From: Chloroflexota bacterium
GTDB lineage: Bacteria > Chloroflexota > Dehalococcoidia > DSTF01 > RBG-16-68-14
Reading direction: 5' to 3'
NCBI GenBank assembly: GCA_003228685.1
Contig: QIFC01000095.1
Location: 120,948 to 184,947, forward strand
Length of the DNA: 64,000 nucleotides
Part shown: one piece after another, positions 10,051 through 37,941 of the stretch
Layout: each line of letters begins with the position of its first letter
Position numbering within the stretch: the first letter of the stretch is position 1
Notes under the pieces: model-generated
Database searches by the model: none
Told to the model about the DNA's origin: nothing
The model's input: only the letters and a program-made list of their open reading frames with translations
Translations under genes and position numbers: made by a program

Positions 10051-10080
10051 AACGCTGTTAGACTGAACTTGTCAACCGGA
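10051..10080 (+). promoter_or_regulatory. Conserved upstream element of PAS-LuxR gene 1 (TAGACT box)
   Basis: A 30-nt stretch matching 23 of 30 positions in the corresponding region of the second PAS-LuxR gene (13602-13631), with TAGACTGA conserved. TAGACT is a plausible -10. The leader to the TTG start would be about 55 nt. Confidence 0.45.
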
Positions 10081-10124
10081 GGGAGGCGAGCCGACTTGGC
10101 GGTCTGGCTAGGAAGGATCTGCGC

Positions 10125-13100
10125 TTGGCGAATAGCGATGACGTTACCCCAGAAGAGAACGTGGCAGATCCTGCCGCTACCGCAGCTGGCCCTCTGAACG
10201 CCGAAGGCACGCTGCCGCAGGGTGCTAACCTCTTCAAGGCGCTCTTCTTGGAGCACCCTGATGGCGTCGCGTTGATTGTGAAGGGGCGGATAGTGCTAGT
10301 CAATGAACGCTTTGCTGAAATGAGCGGCTACTCGGCTGAAGAAGCCATCGGCATGGCCCCCAGTGAACTGGTCGTTCCGGAGGACAAGGAGCGTCTCGAT
10401 GACCGGATACAGGAGCTGCACGAACAGGGAGCAGTGTACCCATCTGCATACACGCTCCTCTGCAAGGACGGGTCCCGCCTTCCCATCGATGCTTACTCGA
10501 ACCCGATACAGCATGACGGGCAAACCGTCTTAATCAGCGTCCTTCGCGACATTTCCGACCAGAAGCAGGCTGAAGAGGCGCAACAGGCGACCACAGAGCG
10601 GCTATTGAAAGCGCAGCGCGTTGCCAAGATAGGGTTCTTGGACTGGAATCTGAAAACGAACGACATAGTCTGGTCGGATCAAATCTATGACCTCTATGGC
10701 GTCGACCCACGAGCCGATGGCGAGACCCTTGACTCCACCATACGGCTCGTTCACCCCGACGACTTGAAATTCGCAGAAGAGAATCTTGAACGGGCCACGA
10801 AGGGTGAGCAGGCATACGACATCGATCACCGCATACTGCGGCCCGATGGCAAGGTGCTATGGGTCCATGCGCAAGCGGAGCTGGTCTGGGGCGCGGACGG
10901 CAACCCGGAAAGCCTTCTGGGAACCGTCGTGGACATTACCGAGCGCAAGGAAGCGGAGCAGGCACTGCGGACCAGCGAAGAGCGCTACAGGACGCTGTAT
11001 GAGCTAGCGAGCGACGCTTTCCTGAACGTTCACACAAATGGCGAAATCCTAGATGCGAACGTCGCGGCGGCCGAATTACTTGGTTACACCTTGGAGGAGC
11101 TCAAGGAACTGAGCGCCCTCCACGATATCATCGCGCCCGAGATATCTGAAGAAACCATGGCGTCGTTGGCAAAGCAGCTTAAAGAGCAAGACCACTTTGA
11201 AGTCGGTACGATATGGCTGCGCAAGGATGGGTCGCGAGTACAGGTAGCCGTGAGCGGGAAGCCCCTGACAATAGACGGCCAGCCTCTGCTTCAGATCATC
11301 GGCCGGGACATCACCGAGCGTAAGCAGGCAGAGGAGGCGCTCCTGGAGAGCGAGGCGAAGTACCACGACCTGGTAGAGACATCGCAGGACATGATCTGGA
11401 AGTGTGCCGCTGACGGACGCTTCACGTATCTGAACGGCGCCTGGCGTGAGACGCTTGGCTATGAGCTCGAAGAAATGCTCGGCCGCCCCTTCACAGACTT
11501 TCAGACGCCGGAGGCCGCCGCACAGGACACCCAGGAGTTCGCCAGCCATCTCGCGGGGGGCTCGGTAACGGGCTACGAGACAACACACGTCTCCAAGTCC
11601 GGCGAGGAGGTTCATCTAGTCTTCAACGCCATGCCGCTGTTTGGCGCCGACGGGAACATCGTAGGCACCCAGGGCACGGCTTACAACATCACGGCGCGGA
11701 AGCGGGCGGAGGAGGCGTTGCGGCTGCGAAGCGCCGCTGTTGAGGCCGCCGCCAACGGCGTCGTCATCGCCGACCGTGAAGGCGATATCGTTTGGGTGAA
11801 CGCAGCCTTCACGGCCCTCACTGGCTATCCCTTCGAGGAGGCCATCGGCCAAAATCCACGCCTCCTCAGATCGGGCAAGCACGATCAGCCGTTCTATAAG
11901 CAGCTCTGGGACACGGTCCTGGCCGGACAGGTCTGGAGAGGTGAGATAATCAACCAGCGCAAGGACGGCAGCTTCTACACGGAGGAGCAGGCCATCACGC
12001 CGGTATCTGACGAACACGGCGAGATCACGCACTTCATCGCCATCAAGCAAGACATCACCGACCGCAAGCAGGCAGAGGAGGCGCTGCGAGCCCTGCAAGA
12101 GGAGCGCTACGACCGGCTGCTTGAAGTGGCGCCGGACGGCATTGTGATCGTCGATGGCGCAGGCGTCATCGAGACCGTCAATGCGAAGACAGAAGAGATG
12201 TTCGGCTACGATCGGAGTGAGCTGATTGGCAGGCCCGTAGAGATGCTCATTCCTGAGCGCTTTCACGAGCGCCATCTAGCCCACCGCCAGGCATACACGG
12301 CTGCGCCCCACGCGCGTCAGATGGGGCCTGAGATAGACCTCTACGGGCTGCGTAAGGATGGGAGCGGATTTCCCGTAGACATCAGCCTCAATACGACGCG
12401 GACAGCAGATGGGGTCCGCGTCATTGCCGCCGTCCGAGACGTGGCGGAACGTGTCGCTGCCGAAACTGCGCTGCGTGAGAGCGAATCCACAAACCGCGCG
12501 CTGTTGGCGGCGATGCCCGACATGATATTCCGGATCGCGCGTGACGGCACGTACCTGGGCTTCACGCCAGGCGCGACAGCAATGCCCATCGTCGAACCGA
12601 ACGAATTCCTGGGCAAGAGCGTACGCGAGGTCATCCCCCAGATTGCTGAACAGTTTCTGCAAGCCATTGAGCGGGCACTGGATAGCCGGGAAACACAGAC
12701 GTTAGAGTACGAACTCGCATATGGCGAAGAGTTAAAATTCTTCGAGGCCCGGATTAACGCTTCCGGCGAGAAAGAAGCGCTCACGATCGTCCGTGACATC
12801 ACAGCTCGCAGGCAGGCGCAGGAGTCGCTGCGGCATAGCGAAGCGCGCTTTTCCACCGCGTTTCACGACAACCCCGTTCCCGTTGTGATCTCCAGAGTGA
12901 ACGATGGAAAGCTCATCGACGTGAATGATGCGTTCCTTAGCATGACCGGACAGCGCCGGGCGGAGACCATTGGGCGCACGAACATCGAACTGGGCATGCA
13001 GACCGACCCCGCCCCGCTCGAGGATGTAGCGGAAGCGGTCCGCAAACACGGAACGGTCATGGACTTCCCAGCACAGCTCAGGCTCAAGACGGGCGATGTC

Positions 13101-13460
13101 CTCGACGTGCTGGCGACCGTGACGCAGATCGAATTGGAAGGCCAGCCCTGCTTCCTGACCACGTTTGTTGACATCACGGAACGCACACGGCTCGAACATG
13201 AGCTACGGCAGATGCGTGACGACCTGGAAAGCAAAGTCGAGCGCCGGATGGCCGGCGACAACCCCTATCGGCTGACCTTTCGCGAGTATACTGTCCTTCA
13301 CCTGATCGCCGCCGGTAAGGCCGACAAGGAGATTGCTGCCGAACTGGGGATCAGCATCTACACCGTCCACCGGCACGTGAGCAAGATCCTGGCGAAGATG
13401 GACTCCCCATCCAGGACAGAGGCGGGAACCCGTGCGCTCCGCGAAGGGCTGCTGGACTAG
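10125..13460 (+). CDS. Multi-PAS LuxR-type regulator (eight PAS domains), paralogue 1
   Basis: A 1111-aa soluble protein with about eight consecutive PAS/PAC units of roughly 120 aa, each ending in the D(I/V)(T/S)(E/A)RK-type PAC motif. The C-terminal LuxR helix-turn-helix (LTFREYTVLHLIAAGKADKEIAAELGIS) occupies the last 70 residues. No kinase, receiver or transmembrane segment is visible, so it probably senses a cytosolic ligand, redox state or light and binds DNA directly. The start is TTG, with GGAAGGA upstream, in the same sequence context as the paralogue at 13675. The cofactor of each PAS domain cannot be told from sequence. Confidence 0.9.
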   Translation: MANSDDVTPEENVADPAATAAGPLNAEGTLPQGANLFKALFLEHPDGVALIVKGRIVLVNERFAEMSGYSAEEAIGMAPSELVVPEDKERLDDRIQELHEQGAVYPSAYTLLCKDGSRLPIDAYSNPIQHDGQTVLISVLRDISDQKQAEEAQQATTERLLKAQRVAKIGFLDWNLKTNDIVWSDQIYDLYGVDPRADGETLDSTIRLVHPDDLKFAEENLERATKGEQAYDIDHRILRPDGKVLWVHAQAELVWGADGNPESLLGTVVDITERKEAEQALRTSEERYRTLYELASDAFLNVHTNGEILDANVAAAELLGYTLEELKELSALHDIIAPEISEETMASLAKQLKEQDHFEVGTIWLRKDGSRVQVAVSGKPLTIDGQPLLQIIGRDITERKQAEEALLESEAKYHDLVETSQDMIWKCAADGRFTYLNGAWRETLGYELEEMLGRPFTDFQTPEAAAQDTQEFASHLAGGSVTGYETTHVSKSGEEVHLVFNAMPLFGADGNIVGTQGTAYNITARKRAEEALRLRSAAVEAAANGVVIADREGDIVWVNAAFTALTGYPFEEAIGQNPRLLRSGKHDQPFYKQLWDTVLAGQVWRGEIINQRKDGSFYTEEQAITPVSDEHGEITHFIAIKQDITDRKQAEEALRALQEERYDRLLEVAPDGIVIVDGAGVIETVNAKTEEMFGYDRSELIGRPVEMLIPERFHERHLAHRQAYTAAPHARQMGPEIDLYGLRKDGSGFPVDISLNTTRTADGVRVIAAVRDVAERVAAETALRESESTNRALLAAMPDMIFRIARDGTYLGFTPGATAMPIVEPNEFLGKSVREVIPQIAEQFLQAIERALDSRETQTLEYELAYGEELKFFEARINASGEKEALTIVRDITARRQAQESLRHSEARFSTAFHDNPVPVVISRVNDGKLIDVNDAFLSMTGQRRAETIGRTNIELGMQTDPAPLEDVAEAVRKHGTVMDFPAQLRLKTGDVLDVLATVTQIELEGQPCFLTTFVDITERTRLEHELRQMRDDLESKVERRMAGDNPYRLTFREYTVLHLIAAGKADKEIAAELGISIYTVHRHVSKILAKMDSPSRTEAGTRALREGLLD

Positions 13461-13674: not shown

Positions 13675-16257
13675 TTGGCAGACATCGGGTACGAAGACCC
13701 CGAAGGGCATGCAGCGAAGTTGGCCGGCATTACTAGCGGCGACGCACAGGCAGAAGACCGGCTCCCCCAAAGCGCACAGCTGTACCAGATGCTCTTCGCA
13801 TCCCACCCCGACGGCGTCGTCCTGACCGTCGAGGGCAAGATCGCGCTCATCAACGATCGCTTTGCCGAGCTGAGCGGCTATTCGACTGAAGAAGCCATCG
13901 GGATGACCCCGAGCGATCTGGTGGTCCCCGAGGAGCGCGAGCGAGCCGGCGAGCGAGTGCAGGCGCTCCTGACGAAAGGGCCGGCGTTCCCGTCCACGTA
14001 CACCTTCGTGCGAAAGGACGGGACCAAACTACCCATCGATGCGCTCTCCAGGCCGGTGCAGCATGACGGGAAGGCGGCCATCATCAGCGTCGTGCGCGAT
14101 ATCTCCGAACGGAGGCGGGCGGAGGAAGCGCTGCTGCGCACCGGGGAGCGCTACCAACACCTGCTTGAAGTGGCGCCGGACGGCATTGTCGTCGTCGATG
14201 GCGCCGGTGTCATTGAGACGGTCAACGCGAAGACGGAGGAGCTCTTTGGCTACGGTCGGGAAGAACTGGTGGGTCGTTCGGTGGAGATGCTCCTTCCCGA
14301 GCGATATCGGGAGCATCACACCGCTCACCGCCAGACATATACGGCCGCGCCCTACGTCCGAACAATGGAGTCGGGGACCGACCTCTACGGCTTGCGCAAA
14401 GACGGAAGCGAATTCCCGGTAGACATCAGCCTCAACGCCATCCAGTCAGACGCTGGGACCAACGTCATCGCTGCCGTACGCGATTTGAGCGAGCGCGCCG
14501 AGGCCGAGAAAGGGCTGCGCCGGAGTGAGGAGCGTTTCAAGGTCTCGCTCATGAATACGCCAATCGTGGTCTTCGAACAGGATTCGGACCTCCGCTACAC
14601 GTGGGCTCACAATCCAGTGCCCGGCTTCACGCTGGAAGATCTGCTCGGCAAGACCGACATCGAATTGCTTCCCGCCGGCGAGGCAACGCGGCTGACCGAA
14701 CTGAAACAGCAAGTCCTCCGTTCCGGCAAGGGAACACGGGAGATCGTCGAAGCCACTATCGACGGTCGGCTCGGCTACCACGACATTACGATCGAAACGT
14801 TGCTTGACGGCGAGGGCGCCATCGTGGGGATCACGGCCGCATCGTTCGACATCACCGAACGCAAGCAGGCAGAAGAGGCGTTGCGAGCGCTGGAAGAGGA
14901 GCGCTACCGCCGTCTGCTTGAAGTGGCGCCGGACGGCATCGTGATCGTCAATGACGCCGGCGTCATCGAGACGGTCAACGCGCGGACGGAAGAGTTGTTC
15001 GGCTACGACCGGAAGGAACTGATCGGCAGGCCCGTGGAGACGCTCATGCCCGACCGGCATCACCAGCTTCATACGGCTCACCGCCAGGCATATACCGCCG
15101 CTCCTCACGCCCGCCCCATGGGGCAGGAGATGGAGCTGTACGGGCTGCGTAAAGATGGGAACATATTCCCGATTGACGTGAGCCTCAACACGATGCGCTC
15201 GGCCGATGGGATCAGCGTCATCGCCGCCGTCCGTGATGTGACCGAGCGCGTTGTTGCCGAGAAGACGCTGCGTGAGAGCGAAGCGACAAACCGTGCGCTG
15301 TTGATGGCAATGCCGGACATGATCTTCCGGCTGGACCGCGATGGCACGTACACGGGCTTTGTGCCGGGCGCAACGTCGGAGCCCATCGTCCAGCCGAGCG
15401 AACTCCTGGGCCGTAGCGTGCGAGAGATCATTCCTAGCCTAGCCGAAGAATTTCTGCAGGCCATTGGCCGGGCACTGGACAGGCAGGACGCACAAACTCT
15501 GGACTATGACCTCCCGTATGATGACGAACTCCGCTCCTTCGAGGCCCGAATCAACGCCTATAGCGATGACGAAGTCTTGGCGATCGTCCGCGATGTGACC
15601 GCGCGCAAGAGAGCCGAGAAGGCGCAACGTGAAAGCGAAGCGCGGTTCTCCACAGCGTTTCACGACAACCCCGTTCCCGTCGCGATCTCCAGAGTGCGGG
15701 ACGGCAAACTCATCGACGTGAATGATGCGTTCCTGAGCATGACCGGACATCGGCGAGCGGAGACCATCGGGCGCACGAACATCGAGCTTGGCATGCTGGC
15801 CGACCCCGGCGCGCGTGAGGACGTAACAGAAGCAGTCCGCGAACACGGAACAGTCCGTGACTTTCCGGCACAGCTCAGGCGCAAGACGGGCGACGTCCTT
15901 GACGTGCTAGCGACGGTGACGCAGATCGAACTGGAAGGCGAGCCCAGCTTCCTGACCACGTTTGTCGACGTCACCGAACGCAAGCGGCTCGAAGCGGAAC
16001 TGCAGGAGATGCGTGACGACCTGGAAAGCAAAGTCGAACGCAGGATGGCCGGCGACAACCCATATCAGCTTACCTTCCGCGAGTTCACGGTCCTTCACCT
16101 CGTCGCCGCAGGCAAAGCGGATAAGGAGATCGCGGTCGAACTGGGTATCAGCGTCTACACCGTCCACCGGCACATGAGCAAGATCCTGGCCAAGATGGAC
16201 TCCCCTTCCAGGACCGAAGCGGGAACGCGAGCGCTCCGCGAAGGGCTGCTGGACTAG
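13675..16257 (+). CDS. Multi-PAS LuxR-type regulator (six PAS domains), paralogue 2
   Basis: An 860-aa paralogue of the preceding gene. The N-terminal PAS and the last PAS units plus LuxR helix-turn-helix align closely with paralogue 1. The middle differs: one PAS type (LLEVAPDGIV...) occurs twice here and once in paralogue 1, separated here by a unit with DITIETLLDGEG. The C-terminal DNA-binding domains are almost identical, including AGKADKEIA and MDSPSRTEAGTRALREGLLD, so both may bind the same operator while sensing different inputs. TTG start, GAGAGGA upstream. No membrane segment. Confidence 0.9.
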   Translation: MADIGYEDPEGHAAKLAGITSGDAQAEDRLPQSAQLYQMLFASHPDGVVLTVEGKIALINDRFAELSGYSTEEAIGMTPSDLVVPEERERAGERVQALLTKGPAFPSTYTFVRKDGTKLPIDALSRPVQHDGKAAIISVVRDISERRRAEEALLRTGERYQHLLEVAPDGIVVVDGAGVIETVNAKTEELFGYGREELVGRSVEMLLPERYREHHTAHRQTYTAAPYVRTMESGTDLYGLRKDGSEFPVDISLNAIQSDAGTNVIAAVRDLSERAEAEKGLRRSEERFKVSLMNTPIVVFEQDSDLRYTWAHNPVPGFTLEDLLGKTDIELLPAGEATRLTELKQQVLRSGKGTREIVEATIDGRLGYHDITIETLLDGEGAIVGITAASFDITERKQAEEALRALEEERYRRLLEVAPDGIVIVNDAGVIETVNARTEELFGYDRKELIGRPVETLMPDRHHQLHTAHRQAYTAAPHARPMGQEMELYGLRKDGNIFPIDVSLNTMRSADGISVIAAVRDVTERVVAEKTLRESEATNRALLMAMPDMIFRLDRDGTYTGFVPGATSEPIVQPSELLGRSVREIIPSLAEEFLQAIGRALDRQDAQTLDYDLPYDDELRSFEARINAYSDDEVLAIVRDVTARKRAEKAQRESEARFSTAFHDNPVPVAISRVRDGKLIDVNDAFLSMTGHRRAETIGRTNIELGMLADPGAREDVTEAVREHGTVRDFPAQLRRKTGDVLDVLATVTQIELEGEPSFLTTFVDVTERKRLEAELQEMRDDLESKVERRMAGDNPYQLTFREFTVLHLVAAGKADKEIAVELGISVYTVHRHMSKILAKMDSPSRTEAGTRALREGLLD

Positions 16258-17206: not shown

Positions 17207-18319
17207 GTGGACCAAGAGATTCCAGAGAGCCCGGCGCAACTAACGCCGGAGTGGCTCACGGCGGCGTTACGGGCTGACGGCGCCATCACCAGGGACGACG
17301 CCACCGTGACCTCGTTCGACGCGGAGACGGTGGGCGAAGGAGTCGGCTTCATCGGACTGCTCGCGCGCCTGCATCTGCGATACAGCGGGGACGCTGAGGG
17401 CGCGCCACCGACTGTCATCGCAAAGTTCCCTTCCCAGGCGGAGGGAGCCAGGGCGATCGGCAAGCTCTACGGCGTGTACGAGCGAGAGGTCCGCTTCTAC
17501 GCCGAGATCGGCGACGATGTCGGCCTCACCACGCCGCACTGCTACTACAGCGCCATGGACATCGACAGCGACCGGTACTTCCTGCTGCTTGAGGACATGG
17601 CCGCGTCAGGCCGCGTGGGCGATCAGGTCGCTGGGTGCTCCGAGGAAGAGGCGCTGCTGGCCGTGACGGAACTGGCGAAACTCCACGCCTCCTGGTGGGA
17701 CAGCTCGGCGTTTCCCGAGGTCGCCTGGCTGCCGCGCGGAAGCGACCTCGTGCGCGCGTTGATGCAGGCGTTGTACCCGCAGTCGAGCAAGGCGTTCACG
17801 GAGGAGTTCGGCGAGCGGCTGACGCCAGAGATCGCCGCCGCGATGGCGACGCTTGACCAGCGCATCCTGGCTTCCCTCCCCGAACTCGAGACCCGGCCGG
17901 AGACGGTCATCCACGCCGACTACAGGCTGGACAACATGTTCTTCGGGATCGACCGGGCGCCATACGAGCTGGCGGTGTTTGACTGGCAAACGACGAACCG
18001 CAGCAACGGCCCGTACGATCTCGCCTACTTCGTGAGCGGCTGCATGGCTCCCGAGCGCCGGCGCACGAGCGAGCCGCGGCTGATCCAGGCCTATCACGAC
18101 GTGCTGGTCGAACGGGGCGTGCGTGGCTATCCGTTCGATGAGCTGATGGAGGACTACGGCCGGTCGCTCGTGCTGGCACTCGCGATCATGACCGTGAGCG
18201 GGGCGACACTGGAGCGGACGAACGAGCGGGCGGTGAAGCTCTGGGAGGGGCTGCTCGATGGCTTGGTCACGTCGATCACCGACCACAGCGCACTCGCTCT
18301 ACTGCCTGCGGCACCGTAG
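17207..18319 (+). CDS. Phosphotransferase (APH / ecdysteroid-kinase-like family)
   Basis: A 370-aa kinase-fold protein. The N-lobe has VIAKFPS as the ATP-binding Lys strand, YEREVRFYAEI as the helix with conserved Glu, and FLLLEDM at the hinge. The C-lobe has VIHADYRLDNMFF (catalytic-loop HxDxxxxN) and FDWQT (metal-binding D). It resembles aminoglycoside-phosphotransferase and EcKL-type small-molecule kinases, and the substrate is not predictable. The GTG start is supported by GAGGAGAG about 8 nt upstream. It lies between two cyclase-start remnants. Confidence 0.85.
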   Translation: MDQEIPESPAQLTPEWLTAALRADGAITRDDATVTSFDAETVGEGVGFIGLLARLHLRYSGDAEGAPPTVIAKFPSQAEGARAIGKLYGVYEREVRFYAEIGDDVGLTTPHCYYSAMDIDSDRYFLLLEDMAASGRVGDQVAGCSEEEALLAVTELAKLHASWWDSSAFPEVAWLPRGSDLVRALMQALYPQSSKAFTEEFGERLTPEIAAAMATLDQRILASLPELETRPETVIHADYRLDNMFFGIDRAPYELAVFDWQTTNRSNGPYDLAYFVSGCMAPERRRTSEPRLIQAYHDVLVERGVRGYPFDELMEDYGRSLVLALAIMTVSGATLERTNERAVKLWEGLLDGLVTSITDHSALALLPAAP

Positions 18320-18344
18320 CCGTTGAGGGTAGAATCAGTCCGCC

Positions 18345-18422
18345 ATGGTGGAACCACGCATCCAGTACGCCCAGACCAAAGATGGAGTCAACATCGCCTA
18401 CTACGCGATCAGGCACCGGCCG
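18345..18422 (+). pseudogene. N-terminal remnant of an alpha/beta-hydrolase/adenylate-cyclase gene
   Basis: TAGAAT at 18330, a 9-nt spacer, then codons for MVEPRIQYAQTKDGVNIAYY, the typical N-terminus of hydrolase-cyclase fusion proteins in this lineage. After about 26 codons the similarity stops. A matching C-terminal cyclase piece lies at 19153-19578, with the OsmC gene between them. Confidence 0.6.
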
Positions 18423-18491
18423 AGCGTACGGGAAACGGTCGTGAGAGATGTGGAAGGGAAGAGCTTGCCACGAGATCAAGGAGGAGTTATC

Positions 18492-18575
18492 ATGCTAGCC
18501 CCTAACTGTAGGCCCCCTTCGGGGGTCACGAGGTTGGTATCGGAAATCCCGGGTAGGCGACCACACGGAGGGTGA
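18492..18575 (+). CDS. Possible 27-aa leader ORF upstream of OsmC
   Basis: AAGGAGGA lies 6 nt before an ATG that opens a 27-codon ORF. Its stop ends 5 nt before the OsmC ATG. Within it lies a CCCCCTTCGGGGG hairpin. A strong ribosome-binding site on so short an ORF, directly abutting the next gene, suggests a leader peptide or translational coupling. It could also be a coincidental in-frame stretch of the cyclase remnant. Confidence 0.3.
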   Translation: MLAPNCRPPSGVTRLVSEIPGRRPHGG

Positions 18576-18580
18576 AGAGG

Positions 18581-19141
18581 ATGACTACTGCGACAAGCCT
18601 CAACGGAGTAAACGTCGAACAGCTGGTTGGCACTATCAATGCTATCAAGGAGAATCCTGAGATCGCGCAGTTCAAATTCCGATCAGAGACGCAGTGGGTT
18701 GACGGCGGCCACTCGCGGACCGAGATCAAGGGATTCTACGGCGCCGAACAGGAGGACGATTCCCGCACCGAGCCGTTCATCCTGGAAGGGGACGAGCCCC
18801 CGGTGCTCCTGGGACACAATGCCGGCCCTAACGCGGTCGAGGCGGTTCTGCACGCCCTTGCGTCCTGTCTGTCGGTCGGGTTCGTCTACAACGCCGCGGC
18901 GCGGGGCATCACGATCGAAGCGCTTAGCTTCACACTGGAGGGCGACGTAGATCTTCATTGCTTCCTGGGACTCTCGGAGGAGACCCGGGCTGGCTACCAG
19001 AACGTCAGAGTCTCCTACCGGGTCAAGAGTGATGCCCCGAGGGAGAAGATCGTTGAGTTGTGCGACTACGTCCAGAAGACCTCCCCGGTCATGGACATAA
19101 TCCGCAACCCAGTCCCGGTTAGCGTGTCACTGGAGGACTAA
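18581..19141 (+). CDS. OsmC family protein
   Basis: A 186-aa OsmC/Ohr-type protein. It shows GPNAVEAVLHALASCLSVGFVYNAAARGITIEALSFTLEGD, the central helix and strand that carry the family's redox Cys, here in ASC. The second Cys is plausibly in IVELCDYVQKTSPV. Family members reduce organic hydroperoxides or handle thiol stress. GGAGGG lies 9 nt before ATG 18581, so the GTG at 18572 is rejected. The gene sits exactly between an N-terminal and a C-terminal cyclase remnant. Confidence 0.88.
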   Translation: MTTATSLNGVNVEQLVGTINAIKENPEIAQFKFRSETQWVDGGHSRTEIKGFYGAEQEDDSRTEPFILEGDEPPVLLGHNAGPNAVEAVLHALASCLSVGFVYNAAARGITIEALSFTLEGDVDLHCFLGLSEETRAGYQNVRVSYRVKSDAPREKIVELCDYVQKTSPVMDIIRNPVPVSVSLED

Positions 19142-19152
19142 GCATAGGGTAT

Positions 19153-19578
19153 GTGGCAACAGAACCCATGCCGCTGCGTCAGGGCTGCCAGGCAGGATTA
19201 GGAATCAAGCACACGGACGACGGCATCATGACCTCGTCCTCGACGGCGTCGTCCGCGCTCGATTGTAGCATCGCGATTCAGCAGGTCGTGGCGTCTCATG
19301 CCGACGAGCATCCGGACGTCTACGTGGGGCTGAATGCGGGCGAGCCGATCGCGGAAGAAGACCCAGACGGGCGAGTCGCCCCCTTCGGCACGTCGATCGA
19401 TCTCGCCGCACGCATCTGCGACCGCGCCCAGCCCAGCCAAATCCTGGCCGCGGACGTGGTGCGCCAACTCGCCGCAGGGAAGCAGTTCTTGTTCTCGGAC
19501 TTGGGCGACACGGAGTTGCGCGGCTTCGAGGACCCAGTGAAACTCTGGGAATTGCGCTGGGAGGCCGCAGAGCCGTAG
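19153..19578 (+). pseudogene. C-terminal fragment of a class III adenylate cyclase gene
   Basis: From about 19201 the translation reads GIKHTDDGIMTS, then GLNAGEPIAEEDPDGR, FGTSIDLAARICDRAQPSQILAADVVRQL and GFEDPVKLWELRW. These are the second metal-site region through the C-terminal end of a class III nucleotidyl cyclase. The first half, with the FTDxxGS metal-binding Asp, is absent. The open frame from GTG 19153 to the stop is intact, so a short protein could be made, but it would not form a complete catalytic site. Confidence 0.7.
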
Positions 19579-19623
19579 GCGGGCCCTGCCTCAGTTCGCC
19601 CGGCGCGTCCTCGCCGGCGCGCC

Positions 19624-20016
19624 CTAGCCGACGCGCTCGAACTGAGGCTCTACGGCGGCGCGGAGCAGGTCGGGCCTGGAGACGATGCCCACCATGGTCC
19701 CGGCCTGCATGACCGGGACGCGCAGGATCTTCGCGGACTCGAGGACCTCCATGATCTCCTCGACTGGGGTGCCAACGTCCACGGTGACGATATCGCGAGT
19801 CATGATTTCGTCGACCGTCGTATCCTCGAGCGATTTGCCGCTGCGTATGGTGTGGAGCAGGTCCATCTCCGTGACGATACCCGCAAGCTTGCCATCCTTC
19901 TCCAGGATGGGGACTCCACTGAAGCCGCCAAGGAGCATATAGAGAGCGATCTCCCGAGCGGAGGCCTTTGTCGTTGCCGCAACGATTGGACTGTTCATCA
20001 CGTCAGCTGCGTTCAT
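19624..20016 (-). CDS. CBS-domain pair protein
   Basis: A 130-aa protein made of two CBS motifs: MNAADVMNSPIVAATTKASAREIA...GVPILEKDGKLAGIVTEMDLL and TVDEIMTRDIVTVDVGTPVEEIM...RVPVMQAGTMVGIVSRPDLL. Such pairs bind adenine nucleotides and regulate partners. AAGGAG precedes the ATG. It starts 11 nt after the EAL gene stop on the same strand, so the two are very likely co-transcribed. A link between nucleotide sensing and cyclic-di-GMP turnover is an inference. Confidence 0.9.
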   Translation of the reverse strand: MNAADVMNSPIVAATTKASAREIALYMLLGGFSGVPILEKDGKLAGIVTEMDLLHTIRSGKSLEDTTVDEIMTRDIVTVDVGTPVEEIMEVLESAKILRVPVMQAGTMVGIVSRPDLLRAAVEPQFERVG

Positions 20017-21077: not shown

Positions 21078-21362
21078 CGCCAGTCTCCTTCCGCCCTGCG
21101 CTCGCATCCGCGCGAGGGCGGCTCTGTATTAAGTGTCGGCTAATTCATGGCCAACTTTGGCTACCGCGGGTCGGCCTAGCTGAAAGAAGCTCTCGCCCGC
21201 AGCTTCCCAGTGCCGCCTCAAGACGGCCCAGAGGCTGGTGAGCCACCCGATTAGCGAGCCCCGCAACCCAGAAGTGGCTCTGTAAGCTCGCTCACGCTTC
21301 CCTATCCGTCGTGTAGTATAGTGGGGCTCAGATACGAACGGTCGGCGGGAGGGAGGCAGTCG

Positions 21363-22088
21363 ATGCTACGTGCATGGCTCGTTCCAGTAGTGAAGATCGT
21401 TGCGGTTGCGGGACTCTCGCTGGGTGTCGCCGCTTTTCTCCTGCTCGGATCTGAGTCGCGGAGTCCAACGCCTGCGAGTGCGGCGGCCGTCGTCATAGAA
21501 GTAGGCGATTTGTGGTTCTGCGATTCATCGTTCCAGAGCGGCGACTGCGAGATTGAAATCGGAGTTGGCGACAGCGTCACCTGGGACTTCGACTCGGCGT
21601 CAGCAACCCACACAATAACCGAGTGCACCGGCTCTTGCGGGAGTGCACTCGGCAACCCGGACTCCAGGGAGTGGCACTCAGGCAACGTGACCAGCGGCAC
21701 GTTCGAACGAACCTTCAATACGGCCGGCGTTTTCCAGTATCAGTGCAATATCCACCCAGTTTCCATGCGCGGCACGATCACCGTGAGTGGCGCCCCGCCG
21801 ACGCTCCCGGTGCCGCCTTCGCCGATACCAAGTGAGACGGAGACGCCTGTACCTACTGATACCCCGGTGCCCGTACCAACGCCGGCACCACCGGGCTTGC
21901 GGGGCGACGTCAACGGCGACGGCACGATCAATGCCATCGATGCGGCGCTCGTCTTGCAATTCGGCGCCGGATTGCTGCCGGCGTTGCCCAGCATCGACCG
22001 GGGCGACGTCAACGGCAACGGAGTCGTGGACGCGATCGACGCCGCGCTCATTCTCCAGTTCAGCGCGGGTCTACTGACCACACTCTAG
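21363..22088 (+). CDS. Exported cupredoxin with dockerin-like tail
   Basis: A 241-aa protein. Signal or anchor helix at about 8-30, then a plastocyanin-like domain: GDSVTWDFDS, SATHTITEC with a His ligand, and the C-terminal FQYQCNIHPVSMRG carrying Cys, His and Met for type 1 copper. A Pro/Thr linker (TPVPTDTPVP) leads to two dockerin-type repeats, GDVNGDGTINAIDAALVLQF and GDVNGNGVVDAIDAALILQF. It probably carries electrons or copper outside the cell. GGGAGG precedes ATG 21363. A TAGTAT box lies about 50 nt upstream. Confidence 0.85.
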   Translation: MLRAWLVPVVKIVAVAGLSLGVAAFLLLGSESRSPTPASAAAVVIEVGDLWFCDSSFQSGDCEIEIGVGDSVTWDFDSASATHTITECTGSCGSALGNPDSREWHSGNVTSGTFERTFNTAGVFQYQCNIHPVSMRGTITVSGAPPTLPVPPSPIPSETETPVPTDTPVPVPTPAPPGLRGDVNGDGTINAIDAALVLQFGAGLLPALPSIDRGDVNGNGVVDAIDAALILQFSAGLLTTL

Positions 22089-28970: not shown

Positions 28971-29402
28971 ATGAGTAATGACCGGACCAGCATCCATCTG
29001 TTTACGGACGTCTCCGGCGGACCCGAGCTGGCGGACCGCCATCGCGAGGTCGCGGCCGACGTCTTGGAGCGCATCGGTGGCGTCGAGGCCCGCGAGACCG
29101 GCACGGGCGTCGCGGCGATCTTCACCGACGCGAACCGCGCCCTGATCTGCGCCGTGCAGATCCAACGCTCGTTCGAAGATTGGGGCTCGTCCAGCAGCGC
29201 GCCCGTGCGCGCCGGCATCAGCCGCCATGACGAGGACGCGGCCACCGTTACGGCGCAAGCCGGCGCTGGCGAGATCCTCGTGACGGACAGCGTGCGAGCG
29301 CTCACAGAACCTCGCGGCCACCTCTTCACGGCCAGAGGCGAGCTTCAGCTCGCCAGCGCCGTCGTCCCGCTCTTCGCCGTCCGCTGGTGGGAACACGACT
29401 GA
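28971..29402 (+). CDS. Degenerate adenylate/guanylate cyclase-like domain protein
   Basis: A 143-aa single-domain protein resembling the class III cyclase homology domain. LFTDVSGGPELADRH matches the FTDxxGST region with the first metal Asp, ETGTGVAAIF corresponds to the usual GDGxxAxF with the second Asp replaced by Thr, and AQAGAGEILVTDSVRAL is the late helix-strand segment. It ends in AVRWWEHD, as do fragments at 32998 and 34853. The lost Asp argues against catalysis. It has a TAGAAT box 8 nt before the ATG and no Shine-Dalgarno. It may be a relic or a binding module. Confidence 0.6.
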   Translation: MSNDRTSIHLFTDVSGGPELADRHREVAADVLERIGGVEARETGTGVAAIFTDANRALICAVQIQRSFEDWGSSSSAPVRAGISRHDEDAATVTAQAGAGEILVTDSVRALTEPRGHLFTARGELQLASAVVPLFAVRWWEHD

Positions 29403-29449
29403 TGCAGCCACGCATCTAGCGTGCGCAGACGAAGGACGGCGTGGACATC
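29402..29449 (+). pseudogene. N-terminal remnant of a cyclase-type gene with a nonsense codon
   Basis: ATG overlaps the stop of the preceding cyclase-like gene (TGATG). The codons give MQPRI, then TAG, then RAQTKDGVDI, which is the MxPRIQYAxTKDGV leader with its Gln codon changed to amber. Nothing of the expected hydrolase domain follows. Confidence 0.55.
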
Positions 29450-29488
29450 CCTTCCTTACGCTAGGGCATTGTCAGTTTGATCGTCGAG

Positions 29489-31298: not shown

Positions 31299-31460
31299 AT
31301 GTGCGGCATCATCGGCGACGTGATGCAGCCAGAGCGGTGGCTCACCATGGATTACACGAAGCTTTCGCCAGAGAGCGGACAACAGTGCCGCACGACTGTT
31401 CGAGGAGCGGGAGCAAGGCGGATGGAGCCGCGCAGTACGCCAAGACGAAGGACGGCGTGA
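31299..31460 (+). pseudogene. Short ORF (MCGIIG start) containing a cyclase-type start remnant
   Basis: AAGGGAG precedes an ATG that encodes MCGIIGDV, which resembles the N-terminal Cys of glutamine amidotransferases, but only 53 codons follow. At 31422-31459 the sequence ATGGAGCCGCGC then AGTACGCCAAGACGAAGG is the MEPRIQYAKTKDGV leader with about 4 nt missing, which shifts the frame. The stretch is best read as decayed gene starts upstream of the serine hydrolase. Confidence 0.4.
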
Positions 31461-31490
31461 GATATACCGGGCCAGTAGGAGGACAGGACG

Positions 31491-35619: not shown

Positions 35620-37941
35620 CTACGTCATCGCGTTCTGGAACACGATCTCGACATGCTCACCGGCATCCAAGTCCACGTCCTGGCACGTATCTGAAATAGC
35701 CACGAAGCCTGGCTGCAGCGTCTCCTGGACAGAGTACTCGCCTGGCGACAGCCCGATCGTCAGGCCATTTGTCTGCGTCGCCGCGATCGTAAACGGCGAG
35801 CCCGCGCAGCCTCCGCCGGTGTAGATCTTGATCTCCCACCCGGCCGCGCTTTCCTGAACGACCATGTCGCCGTTTAGGATCTCTTTGCGTATCTTCAGTG
35901 TGCCCGTGTTGGACGGCGTGTTCGTCGCCGTCGGCGTGATCGGTGTATTGGTTGCCGTTGGCGCGGCGGGCGTGTTGGTTGGCGCTGGTGGCACCGGCGT
36001 CGGCGTCGATGTCGAAGTGGGTGGCGGAGGCGCCGGCGTGTTCGTCGGTGGCGGGCCTCCTACTGGCAGGCCGTCCAGCAGACCCGCGACGAACTGCAGG
36101 ATCAACGCCGCGTCGATCGCGTTGGAGGCGCCGCTGAAGTCCACGTCGGCCGCGGCCGGGCAGGCGAACGGGCTGAAGAGCCCAGCGATGAACTGCAACA
36201 CCAGCGCCGCATCGGTCGCGTCGACGCGACCGTCGCAGTTAACGTCACCCGAGCCGCCGCCGGGGGGCGCCTGCGTGGGCGGTGGTGCCGTGGGCGGTGG
36301 TTCGGGGCACACGCCGCCAGCCCCACCAGGAGGACAGGTGCTGTTTTTCCAGACGACCAGCGAAACTTCCGTGAGGAAGTTGGTAAGCACACTCACGCTC
36401 ACCGTCGCCCCCGGCTGAGCGCACTTCTCCCCCCAGTCGATGATCACATCGCTGTTGTCGCCCACGATGACCGAGGCTATGGTGCAGTCTGTGGTGTCGG
36501 ACACGATGAACGGGTCGTCGAGTTGTCCGCCCGTGAACTGGAAGACAATGTTGAGGCCCGTAGCGGCTCCTGGACCTGGGTTCGTGAACTCAAACGAACG
36601 TTTCGACTTCTGGCCCAAGACGCCTTCCACCGCGCCGAGCGCGTCGAGCAACCCGAAGCCGGAGAGGTCATCGAAGCCGGGGTCCTCAATGTCCTGTGCA
36701 GTGTCGACCATCGCATCTCTGATCTCGGCCGGACTCAACGTCGGATCCAATTCCAGCAAGAGCGCAGCGACGCCTGCCGCATGCGGCGCTGAGGCTGACG
36801 TGCCGAAAAATGGATCGAATCCACTGGTAGCCGTGGAGACCCCATCAGCCGCCGCGATGTCCGGCTTATCGCGCACGATGCCGCCCGAAGACGAGAAGTC
36901 CCCGGGGGTGAACGGATTGCCGTCGGCGTCGAAGAAGACGCGGCGGGGGCCATCGGAGCTAAAGGGCTCTATCAGCGCCGTTCCGTCGAAGGGGCCGCCT
37001 CCGGCTTGCGCCACATCGGCAGCGCCTACCGTAATCGCAAAGTCGGACCCGGCGTGGCCGCCGATAGCGCCGTTCGTGCCGAACGTCAGCGGCGCGCCAA
37101 ACGTATCCACACGCATGAAGCGGGGATCCGCTTCGCCGCCCCAGTTCACCACAATGATGTGGTCACCCTTCTGGGGCAGCGGCTCGCCGGGGTCGTCTCC
37201 CAGGATCTCGATCGGGTCCTGCGTTCCCGTCTGCGGATCGGTCGAGCATGTCCACGCGGGGATGTCTGGCTCGATTAGGCATAGATCGTAGTCGTTTTCG
37301 GAGCCGGCCAGCGAGTCGGCCCATTGGAGGACGATCGGGGCGTCTCCATTCTGCACAACGTTAGACGGCTGGCCGAAGTCCAACACCGTGCCGTTGATCG
37401 GCGGCGGACCAAGCCCAGGGAAGAATCCTTGGACGTCCTGAGTGGTCAGCCCCATGGTGTTGAAGTCGCCTTCCCAAACGCTGGAGGTCCCATTGCTCAG
37501 GTTGCCGCCATCACCCGCTGCGGCAAAAAAGACCGAGATGTCCAGCGGAGCGTCCCTCATCGCCCGCGCGATGGCGCCGTCCTGGAAGACGGGCTCCCTG
37601 AAGAAGAGCACATCATCCACGATGATGTCGCACCCCCTCTCTACCAGCCCGTCAATGTTCGTCGCCATCTGGGCCTGGCTGGGGCCGCCAGTCGCGAAAC
37701 CGAGGTCCGCGCCCGGCGCCAGATCGTGGACGATCTCCAGCATCGCCGTGCCGGCGTCGCCCGAACCTTGCTGGCCGGGAAGGATGTCGATTCCTAGTGG
37801 CAGGTCGCCGGAGAGCTCGAGGTCGGGGAGGCTGTCGACGCCGTCCGAGATGACACAGACCTTCACGCCAGAGCCATCGACGCCAAATGTGGTTCGCGCC
37901 AAGTCTACGCGATGCGCCACATCGCCCTGGGAAATGTTCAT
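35620..37941 (-). CDS. Subtilase-like protease domain with dockerin tail (3' part of an interrupted gene)
   Basis: A 773-aa extracellular protein. A subtilisin-like (S8) domain occupies residues about 1-440: VCVISDGVDSL for the Asp, GTSASAPHAAGVAALLLELDP for the catalytic Ser. The usual HG(T/V) His is not evident; the equivalent stretch reads DAGTAMLEIVHDLAPGA. Then a beta-rich region, a dockerin-like pair (DVNCDGRVDATDAALVLQF and SNAIDAALILQF), long Pro/Thr linkers and a C-terminal prealbumin-like beta domain (LKIRKEI...WEIKIYTGGGC...YSVQETLQPGF). Its N-terminus joins in frame, after an amber codon, to the ORF at 37957. Confidence 0.8.
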   Translation of the reverse strand: MNISQGDVAHRVDLARTTFGVDGSGVKVCVISDGVDSLPDLELSGDLPLGIDILPGQQGSGDAGTAMLEIVHDLAPGADLGFATGGPSQAQMATNIDGLVERGCDIIVDDVLFFREPVFQDGAIARAMRDAPLDISVFFAAAGDGGNLSNGTSSVWEGDFNTMGLTTQDVQGFFPGLGPPPINGTVLDFGQPSNVVQNGDAPIVLQWADSLAGSENDYDLCLIEPDIPAWTCSTDPQTGTQDPIEILGDDPGEPLPQKGDHIIVVNWGGEADPRFMRVDTFGAPLTFGTNGAIGGHAGSDFAITVGAADVAQAGGGPFDGTALIEPFSSDGPRRVFFDADGNPFTPGDFSSSGGIVRDKPDIAAADGVSTATSGFDPFFGTSASAPHAAGVAALLLELDPTLSPAEIRDAMVDTAQDIEDPGFDDLSGFGLLDALGAVEGVLGQKSKRSFEFTNPGPGAATGLNIVFQFTGGQLDDPFIVSDTTDCTIASVIVGDNSDVIIDWGEKCAQPGATVSVSVLTNFLTEVSLVVWKNSTCPPGGAGGVCPEPPPTAPPPTQAPPGGGSGDVNCDGRVDATDAALVLQFIAGLFSPFACPAAADVDFSGASNAIDAALILQFVAGLLDGLPVGGPPPTNTPAPPPPTSTSTPTPVPPAPTNTPAAPTATNTPITPTATNTPSNTGTLKIRKEILNGDMVVQESAAGWEIKIYTGGGCAGSPFTIAATQTNGLTIGLSPGEYSVQETLQPGFVAISDTCQDVDLDAGEHVEIVFQNAMT

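Follow-up and report, generated by a model that had tools for sequence, protein, structure and literature searches.

The window, i.e. the whole 64,000-nucleotide stretch of DNA from a Chloroflexota bacterium that was analyzed here, contains an intact gene of the OsmC family placed between an N-terminal and a C-terminal remnant of alpha/beta-hydrolase/class III cyclase genes, with all three on the + strand. Upstream of these lies a kinase-like gene of the EcKL/APH family (17207-18319, +; Pfam PF02958, 6.2e-23), followed by a -10-like box, TAGAAT (18330-18335, +), situated 9 nt 5' of the ATG of the N-terminal stub, which is a near-leaderless spacing. The first codons of the stub frame, from the ATG at 18345, read MVEPRIQYAQTKDGVNIAYYAI. 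The remnant proper occupies 18345-18422 (+), with homology that is clear to about 18402-18407 and ends near 18402-18422, and its open frame continues for 76 codons in all (18345-18575, +) up to a TGA stop (18573-18575) that overlaps the Shine-Dalgarno region of the OsmC gene. The latter is preceded by a 158-bp leader (18423-18580, +), in which a promoter scan picks up a second promoter-like site (18465-18493), and by a ribosome-binding site, GGAGGG, read from the sequence (18567-18572, +); the gene itself extends from an ATG at 18581 to 19141 (+; PF02566, E 7.5e-17). A 62-bp spacer (19142-19203, +) separates it from the C-terminal cyclase-domain remnant (19204-19578, +), which corresponds approximately to residues 324-451 of an intact 454-aa protein, and beyond this the right flank begins with a CBS-domain gene on the opposite strand (19624-20016, -).

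The N-terminal remnant is 52-83% identical to the N-termini of hydrolase-cyclases of the same genome over 18-22 residues in the clear cases, and its DNA is 84-89% identical to the best copies over 54-63 nt (DNA-profile E 2.1e-16). The C-terminal remnant matches PF00211 as a partial domain (E 2e-5, from profile position 73 on) and shows 70-80% amino acid identity to the C-terminal ~125 residues of its closest homologues; the source genome has six close relatives of this part, and four of these lie within hydrolase-cyclase frames that are intact, at 454-503 codons. The preliminary description, which had read in a single direction an N-terminus at 18345-18422, a full OsmC gene with its own GGAGGG and a cyclase C-terminal half reaching 19578, is thus borne out part by part, except that the N-terminus it termed cyclase-type, while belonging to the bifunctional protein, is really that of its alpha/beta-hydrolase half.

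The best intact match is a 454-aa alpha/beta-hydrolase/class III cyclase from a genome of the same genus (G002:C85, P0002). Its alignment to the window is confined to residues 1-25 (18348-18422) and 324-451 (19195-19566), with DNA identities of 84% over 18340-18402 and 77% over 19204-19579. Compared to this intact gene residues ~26-323 (~298 codons) are absent, and ~800 bp of other DNA stand in their place. The alpha/beta-hydrolase domain is not complete in the window copy, the 76-codon stub frame being without any Pfam match, and the first half of the cyclase catalytic domain (the FTDMESS stretch of the CN segment) is likewise absent, with only the CC segment matched. Since the first half of the catalytic domain is missing, its anatomy indicates that the C-terminal remnant alone cannot be a working cyclase, and both remnants appear to be dead as coding sequence. 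Sequence comparison further establishes the kinship of the remaining ends to the LipJ-like hydrolase/cyclase family. The LipJ-type bifunctional lipase/adenylate cyclase (NCBIfam NF058673) has, like the intact parents, a hydrolase followed by a class III cyclase; in contrast, the window copy has neither the hydrolase nor the first half of the cyclase domain and no longer forms one gene, its C-terminal remnant matching model positions 338-444 of 449 with a score of 44 against a cut-off of 800. At the G002:C85 locus itself, a second, orphan cyclase C-tail (L100 4808-4867) is found downstream of a small membrane ORF that follows the intact cyclase, and this ORF is thus bracketed by two C-tails.

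The OsmC gene and its surroundings

The OsmC domain is full length (profile positions 1-99 of 100) and scores 62 bits against PF02566, above the curated gathering cut-off of 27.5. In an alignment with homologues Cys96 is present in 35/35 and Cys161 in 29/35, and Ser168 is conserved too. The protein scores below the cut-off for the OsmC-related (seleno)protein family NF041052 (57.4 vs 95), and going by its family it is most likely, as a prediction, an ordinary thiol-dependent OsmC/Ohr-type protein handling peroxides.

No OsmC match at E 1e-3 or better was recovered in two genomes of the same genus and three of the same family, and the gene was found in 14/60 relatives, mostly distant ones. Its nearest sequences come from other Chloroflexota, at 79% identity at best, in a tree that is poorly resolved. 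This absence from all near relatives supports horizontal acquisition, which is the simplest account of its presence; its GC content is only mildly low (0.596 against a mean of 0.645, sd 0.035, for the ORFs of the window). In several other Chloroflexota (L101, L104, L108, L135, L093) OsmC lies between a BTAD/AAA-TPR regulator upstream and a class I methyltransferase downstream, whereas in the window it stands alone between the cyclase remnants. A motif like GGTAAGATTTTTGGGAGG occurs upstream of OsmC in several members of that set; the corresponding upstream motif (AAGATTTTTGGGAGG) is absent from the window locus. Neither the leader (18423-18580) in the 60 relatives nor the spacer (19142-19203) has a convincing match, and a DNA profile detects no second copy of the family's N-terminal tag (N-tag) before the C-terminal remnant.

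Several other descriptions of the inserted segment were discarded. Domain insertion within one polypeptide is excluded by the stops at 18573-18575 and 19139-19141, which separate three frames; no terminal or target-site repeat pair of an IS or transposon brackets 18403-19203; the leader has no Rfam match at gathering score that would mark an RNA element; and the homologues of OsmC on plasmids are all <60% identical, which does not favor a plasmid origin.

Gutted copies in the wider family

We searched six genomes of the family (G000-G005) with the N-tag pattern GARCCNMGNATHCARTAYGCN, allowing one mismatch, and obtained 62 places, against 2 in the same six for the reversed control pattern. A hydrolase profile finds the hydrolase retained behind 40 of these tags, none behind 20 and only 69 residues of it behind 1; as one further tag lies at a contig end, the hydrolase is lost in 21/61 classifiable cases, most of which precede unrelated genes. 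The losses are unevenly spread (G005 12/18, G002 7/13, G001 1/4, G000 1/6, G003 and G004 together 0/20; p 3e-5), and for a sister N-terminal subfamily (EQxxxFCT) of these genomes the figure is 0/19 (p 0.002, or 0.008 if only stubs of at least ~12 codons are counted, the length needed by the sister's longer pattern). Among the genes behind stubs Pfam recognizes DUF1330, methyltransferase, enoyl-CoA hydratase, MFS_3, DinB, beta-lactamase and AlkZ-related domains, and fusions of FHA and of SCO4226 with cyclases are also found there.

The anatomy closest to that of the window is seen at G002:C39, where ~100 N-terminal residues are followed by a DUF1330 gene and then by cyclase residues 382-450. 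At G002:C112 there is a plain deletion, with codon ~10 joined out of frame to the cyclase C-half. Two contigs of G005 share 93% identity between positions -384 and +37 relative to the tag and diverge from there on, with one going on as hydrolase and the other stopping after 13 codons before an SCO4226-cyclase gene; identity here is highest upstream and drops towards the tag, and strain mixing or gene conversion are therefore possible causes. G005:C183 does not count as a gene inside one split gene, for the C-tail behind its inserted methyltransferase is part of another gutted gene, which has an N-tag of its own. The OsmC locus is best seen as one gutted member among many in a hydrolase-cyclase family that has expanded and recombines, OsmC being its cargo, and the best reading is that bodies of this family have been repeatedly lost or replaced while the ends persist, in a recurrent rather than a one-off process.

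Besides these, hydrolase N-parts and cyclase C-parts are found fused unusually far apart at L182 5942-8224 (G000:C35), L169 1299-3524 (G001:C12) and L183 (G005:C35); in the first two the translation between the parts reads as a Ser/Thr protein kinase domain.

Putative promoters and possible coupling at the stubs

In 34/62 tags a TANNNT hexamer lies 14-19 nt upstream of the start codon, the commonest position being exactly -15, as compared to 2.7% in shuffles, 3/20 sister tags and, in a similar test, 3/58 ORFs of the window. This spacing predicts transcripts starting within a few bases of the stub ATG, and OsmC may accordingly be transcribed from the promoter retained with its stub; the site inside the leader (18465-18493) could serve it instead, which counts against this part of the account. 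The stub stop falls within 25 nt of the start of the next gene in 10/15 cases, against 8/30 for the two other frames (p 0.02). As some of the start codons in this test were chosen by hand, the coupling of stub stop to next start is only suggestive. Two further tags in the window are degenerate, and count against a coding function of the tag: one (29402-29455, +; DNA profile E 8.4e-5 within the window), after a cyclase-like ORF and before a TetR-like gene, carries an in-frame stop, and the other (31422-31461, +; E 3.2e-8 within the window), before a beta-lactamase-like gene, is frameshifted by a 4-nt deletion, the names TetR-like and beta-lactamase-like coming from reading the translations.

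Origin of the arrangement

The preliminary description had pointed to relatives with an intact cyclase at this locus as the telling comparison, and in part such a state is found. Three loci of relatives, G003:C63, G003:C27 and G004:C152, each pair a kinase from this family with an intact hydrolase-cyclase that begins 66-184 bp further down, directly after the kinase, and has the start seen in the window. Identity to the window kinase is 41-44%, and the loci are thus homologous and not strictly orthologous. No strictly orthologous empty locus was found, the same-genus genomes examined being devoid of an orthologue of the kinase. To the right, the genes of G001 (CBS, EAL, cupredoxin-like, LuxR) match the window with 83% DNA identity over most of the stretch, but there a ferredoxin-reductase-like gene adjoins CBS. 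Elsewhere in that genome (G001:C12) a short relic of a CBS-like 3' end, alignable to window positions 19385-19659, comes after the 3' end of a cyclase, which suggests that the cyclase-end-to-CBS-end order of the window is probably the older arrangement.

Elsewhere in the window, the cupredoxin-like gene at 21321-22088 carries dockerin-like repeats, and its 3' part recurs near 36073 and 46990. Two adjacent large genes (10062-13457 and 13675-16257) resemble each other, and shared stretches of both have matches at G001:C168, where the homologue directly precedes an intact hydrolase-cyclase; the first of the two genes is a multi-PAS LuxR-type regulator.

We favor the account in which a single hydrolase-cyclase gene behind the kinase lost its middle and acquired OsmC in the gap, and assign it a probability of about 0.6. 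An ancestral member of this multi-copy family would have stood behind the kinase gene and lost ~298 codons by non-homologous recombination, and OsmC, acquired horizontally together with its own leader, would have come into the gap; the near-leaderless promoter of the stub (TAGAAT, then ATG), whose frame ends at the OsmC Shine-Dalgarno site, may still transcribe it. This account is supported by the match of both ends to one intact family (best to G002:C85), in which N- and C-parts occur in a single gene of ~455 aa, by the kinase and intact hydrolase-cyclase order of G003 and G004, by the cyclase and CBS ends at G001:C12, by the absence of OsmC from the five nearest genomes together with its closest sequences being in other Chloroflexota, and by the comparable anatomy with DUF1330 at G002:C39, the contrast of 21/61 losses with 0/19 in the sister subfamily and the fixed -10 spacing. 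Against it stand the missing orthologous empty locus, an N piece of ~20 codons that is nearly the same in many copies and too short to prove the same parent gene, the mere 77% DNA identity of the C-terminal remnant to intact copies and the weak coupling statistics (p 0.02).

The earlier proposal that OsmC replaced the middle of a hydrolase-cyclase gene is accordingly supported in part, by the missing middle, the absence of OsmC nearby and the intact counterpart in relatives, where N- and C-parts do form one gene, contrary to the outcome that would have spoken against the proposal; descent of both ends from one parent is probable rather than certain, and the event is not unique, there being ~20 further losses. 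Either OsmC itself replaced the middle or it landed in a gene already internally deleted, and plain internal deletions such as that at G002:C112 do exist in the family.

Two neighbouring broken copies in a decaying tandem array would give the same order, the 5' stub before OsmC coming from one gene and the 3' end after it from a second, with no single gene ever interrupted. Tandem arrays of hydrolase-cyclase genes exist (G003:C27, G003:C88) and the two gutted genes at G005:C183 offer a precedent, but the spacer before the C-terminal remnant of the window is without a second N-tag, and the presence of a single N piece and a single C piece in the expected order, next to a kinase as in the relatives with one intact gene, is more simply explained by one gene. 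We therefore consider two parents somewhat unlikely.

It could further be proposed that the promoter and first codons of hydrolase-cyclases constitute an expression module, i.e. a near-leaderless promoter with a short translated start, repeatedly left or placed before unrelated or foreign genes (OsmC, DUF1330, methyltransferase, MFS, DinB, beta-lactamase and others) and driving them by translational coupling; we regard this as quite doubtful. That a mobile module of promoter and first ~10-25 codons, spreading or selectively kept before new genes and expressed through such coupling, accounts for the locus we judge clearly improbable. Stubs do precede at least ten unrelated genes, with the fixed -10 spacing, the 10/15 against 8/30 stop positions and near-identical upstream DNA before different genes, but their lengths range from 9 codons to ~100 and they share no border, the -10 box is absent by inspection in 8/21 stubs, the two other tags of the window are broken and orphan C-tails are left too, all of which fit plain decay. 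An assembly chimera of unrelated fragments is hardly credible: the draft genome is fragmented, at 128 contigs and 87% completeness, but the locus lies inside a 185-kb contig, its right flank is collinear with G001 at 83% DNA identity and similar gutted copies occur in independent genomes (G002:C39, G001:C250, G005).

Disruption of a host gene, or capture of its promoter, by an acquired gene is a general process. The window locus is like it in having an acquired gene between two host-gene remnants, downstream of an old promoter, and differs in that one gene family loses its body repeatedly, with the start kept, across several genera; no paper on this pattern turned up in searches of the literature for leaderless promoter capture, short leader ORFs or gene-remnant hotspots. 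The loci bear on the unsolved question of how acquired genes come to be expressed in a new host: in a few genomes one recognizable gene start, often with a promoter-like box, stands before ten or more unrelated genes, beside intact and half-replaced copies, and this forms a natural series for asking whether decaying multi-copy genes are landing places and ready-made promoters. If only decay is at work, the series still shows the dismantling of an expanded signalling-gene family, and cautions against annotating such stubs as real genes.

All six family genomes also contain a dispersed repeat of ~36 bp (TTCTGCTATACTCCGACCACCAGAGCAGGAGGTGGC and near copies), for example at about 6264-6300 of L218. 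A 150-bp stretch shared with 87% identity by two genera (L218 6226-6376 and L240 640-790) ends in the N-tag; it lies near a tRNA-like sequence, is followed by different genes in the two, and is possibly an island edge.
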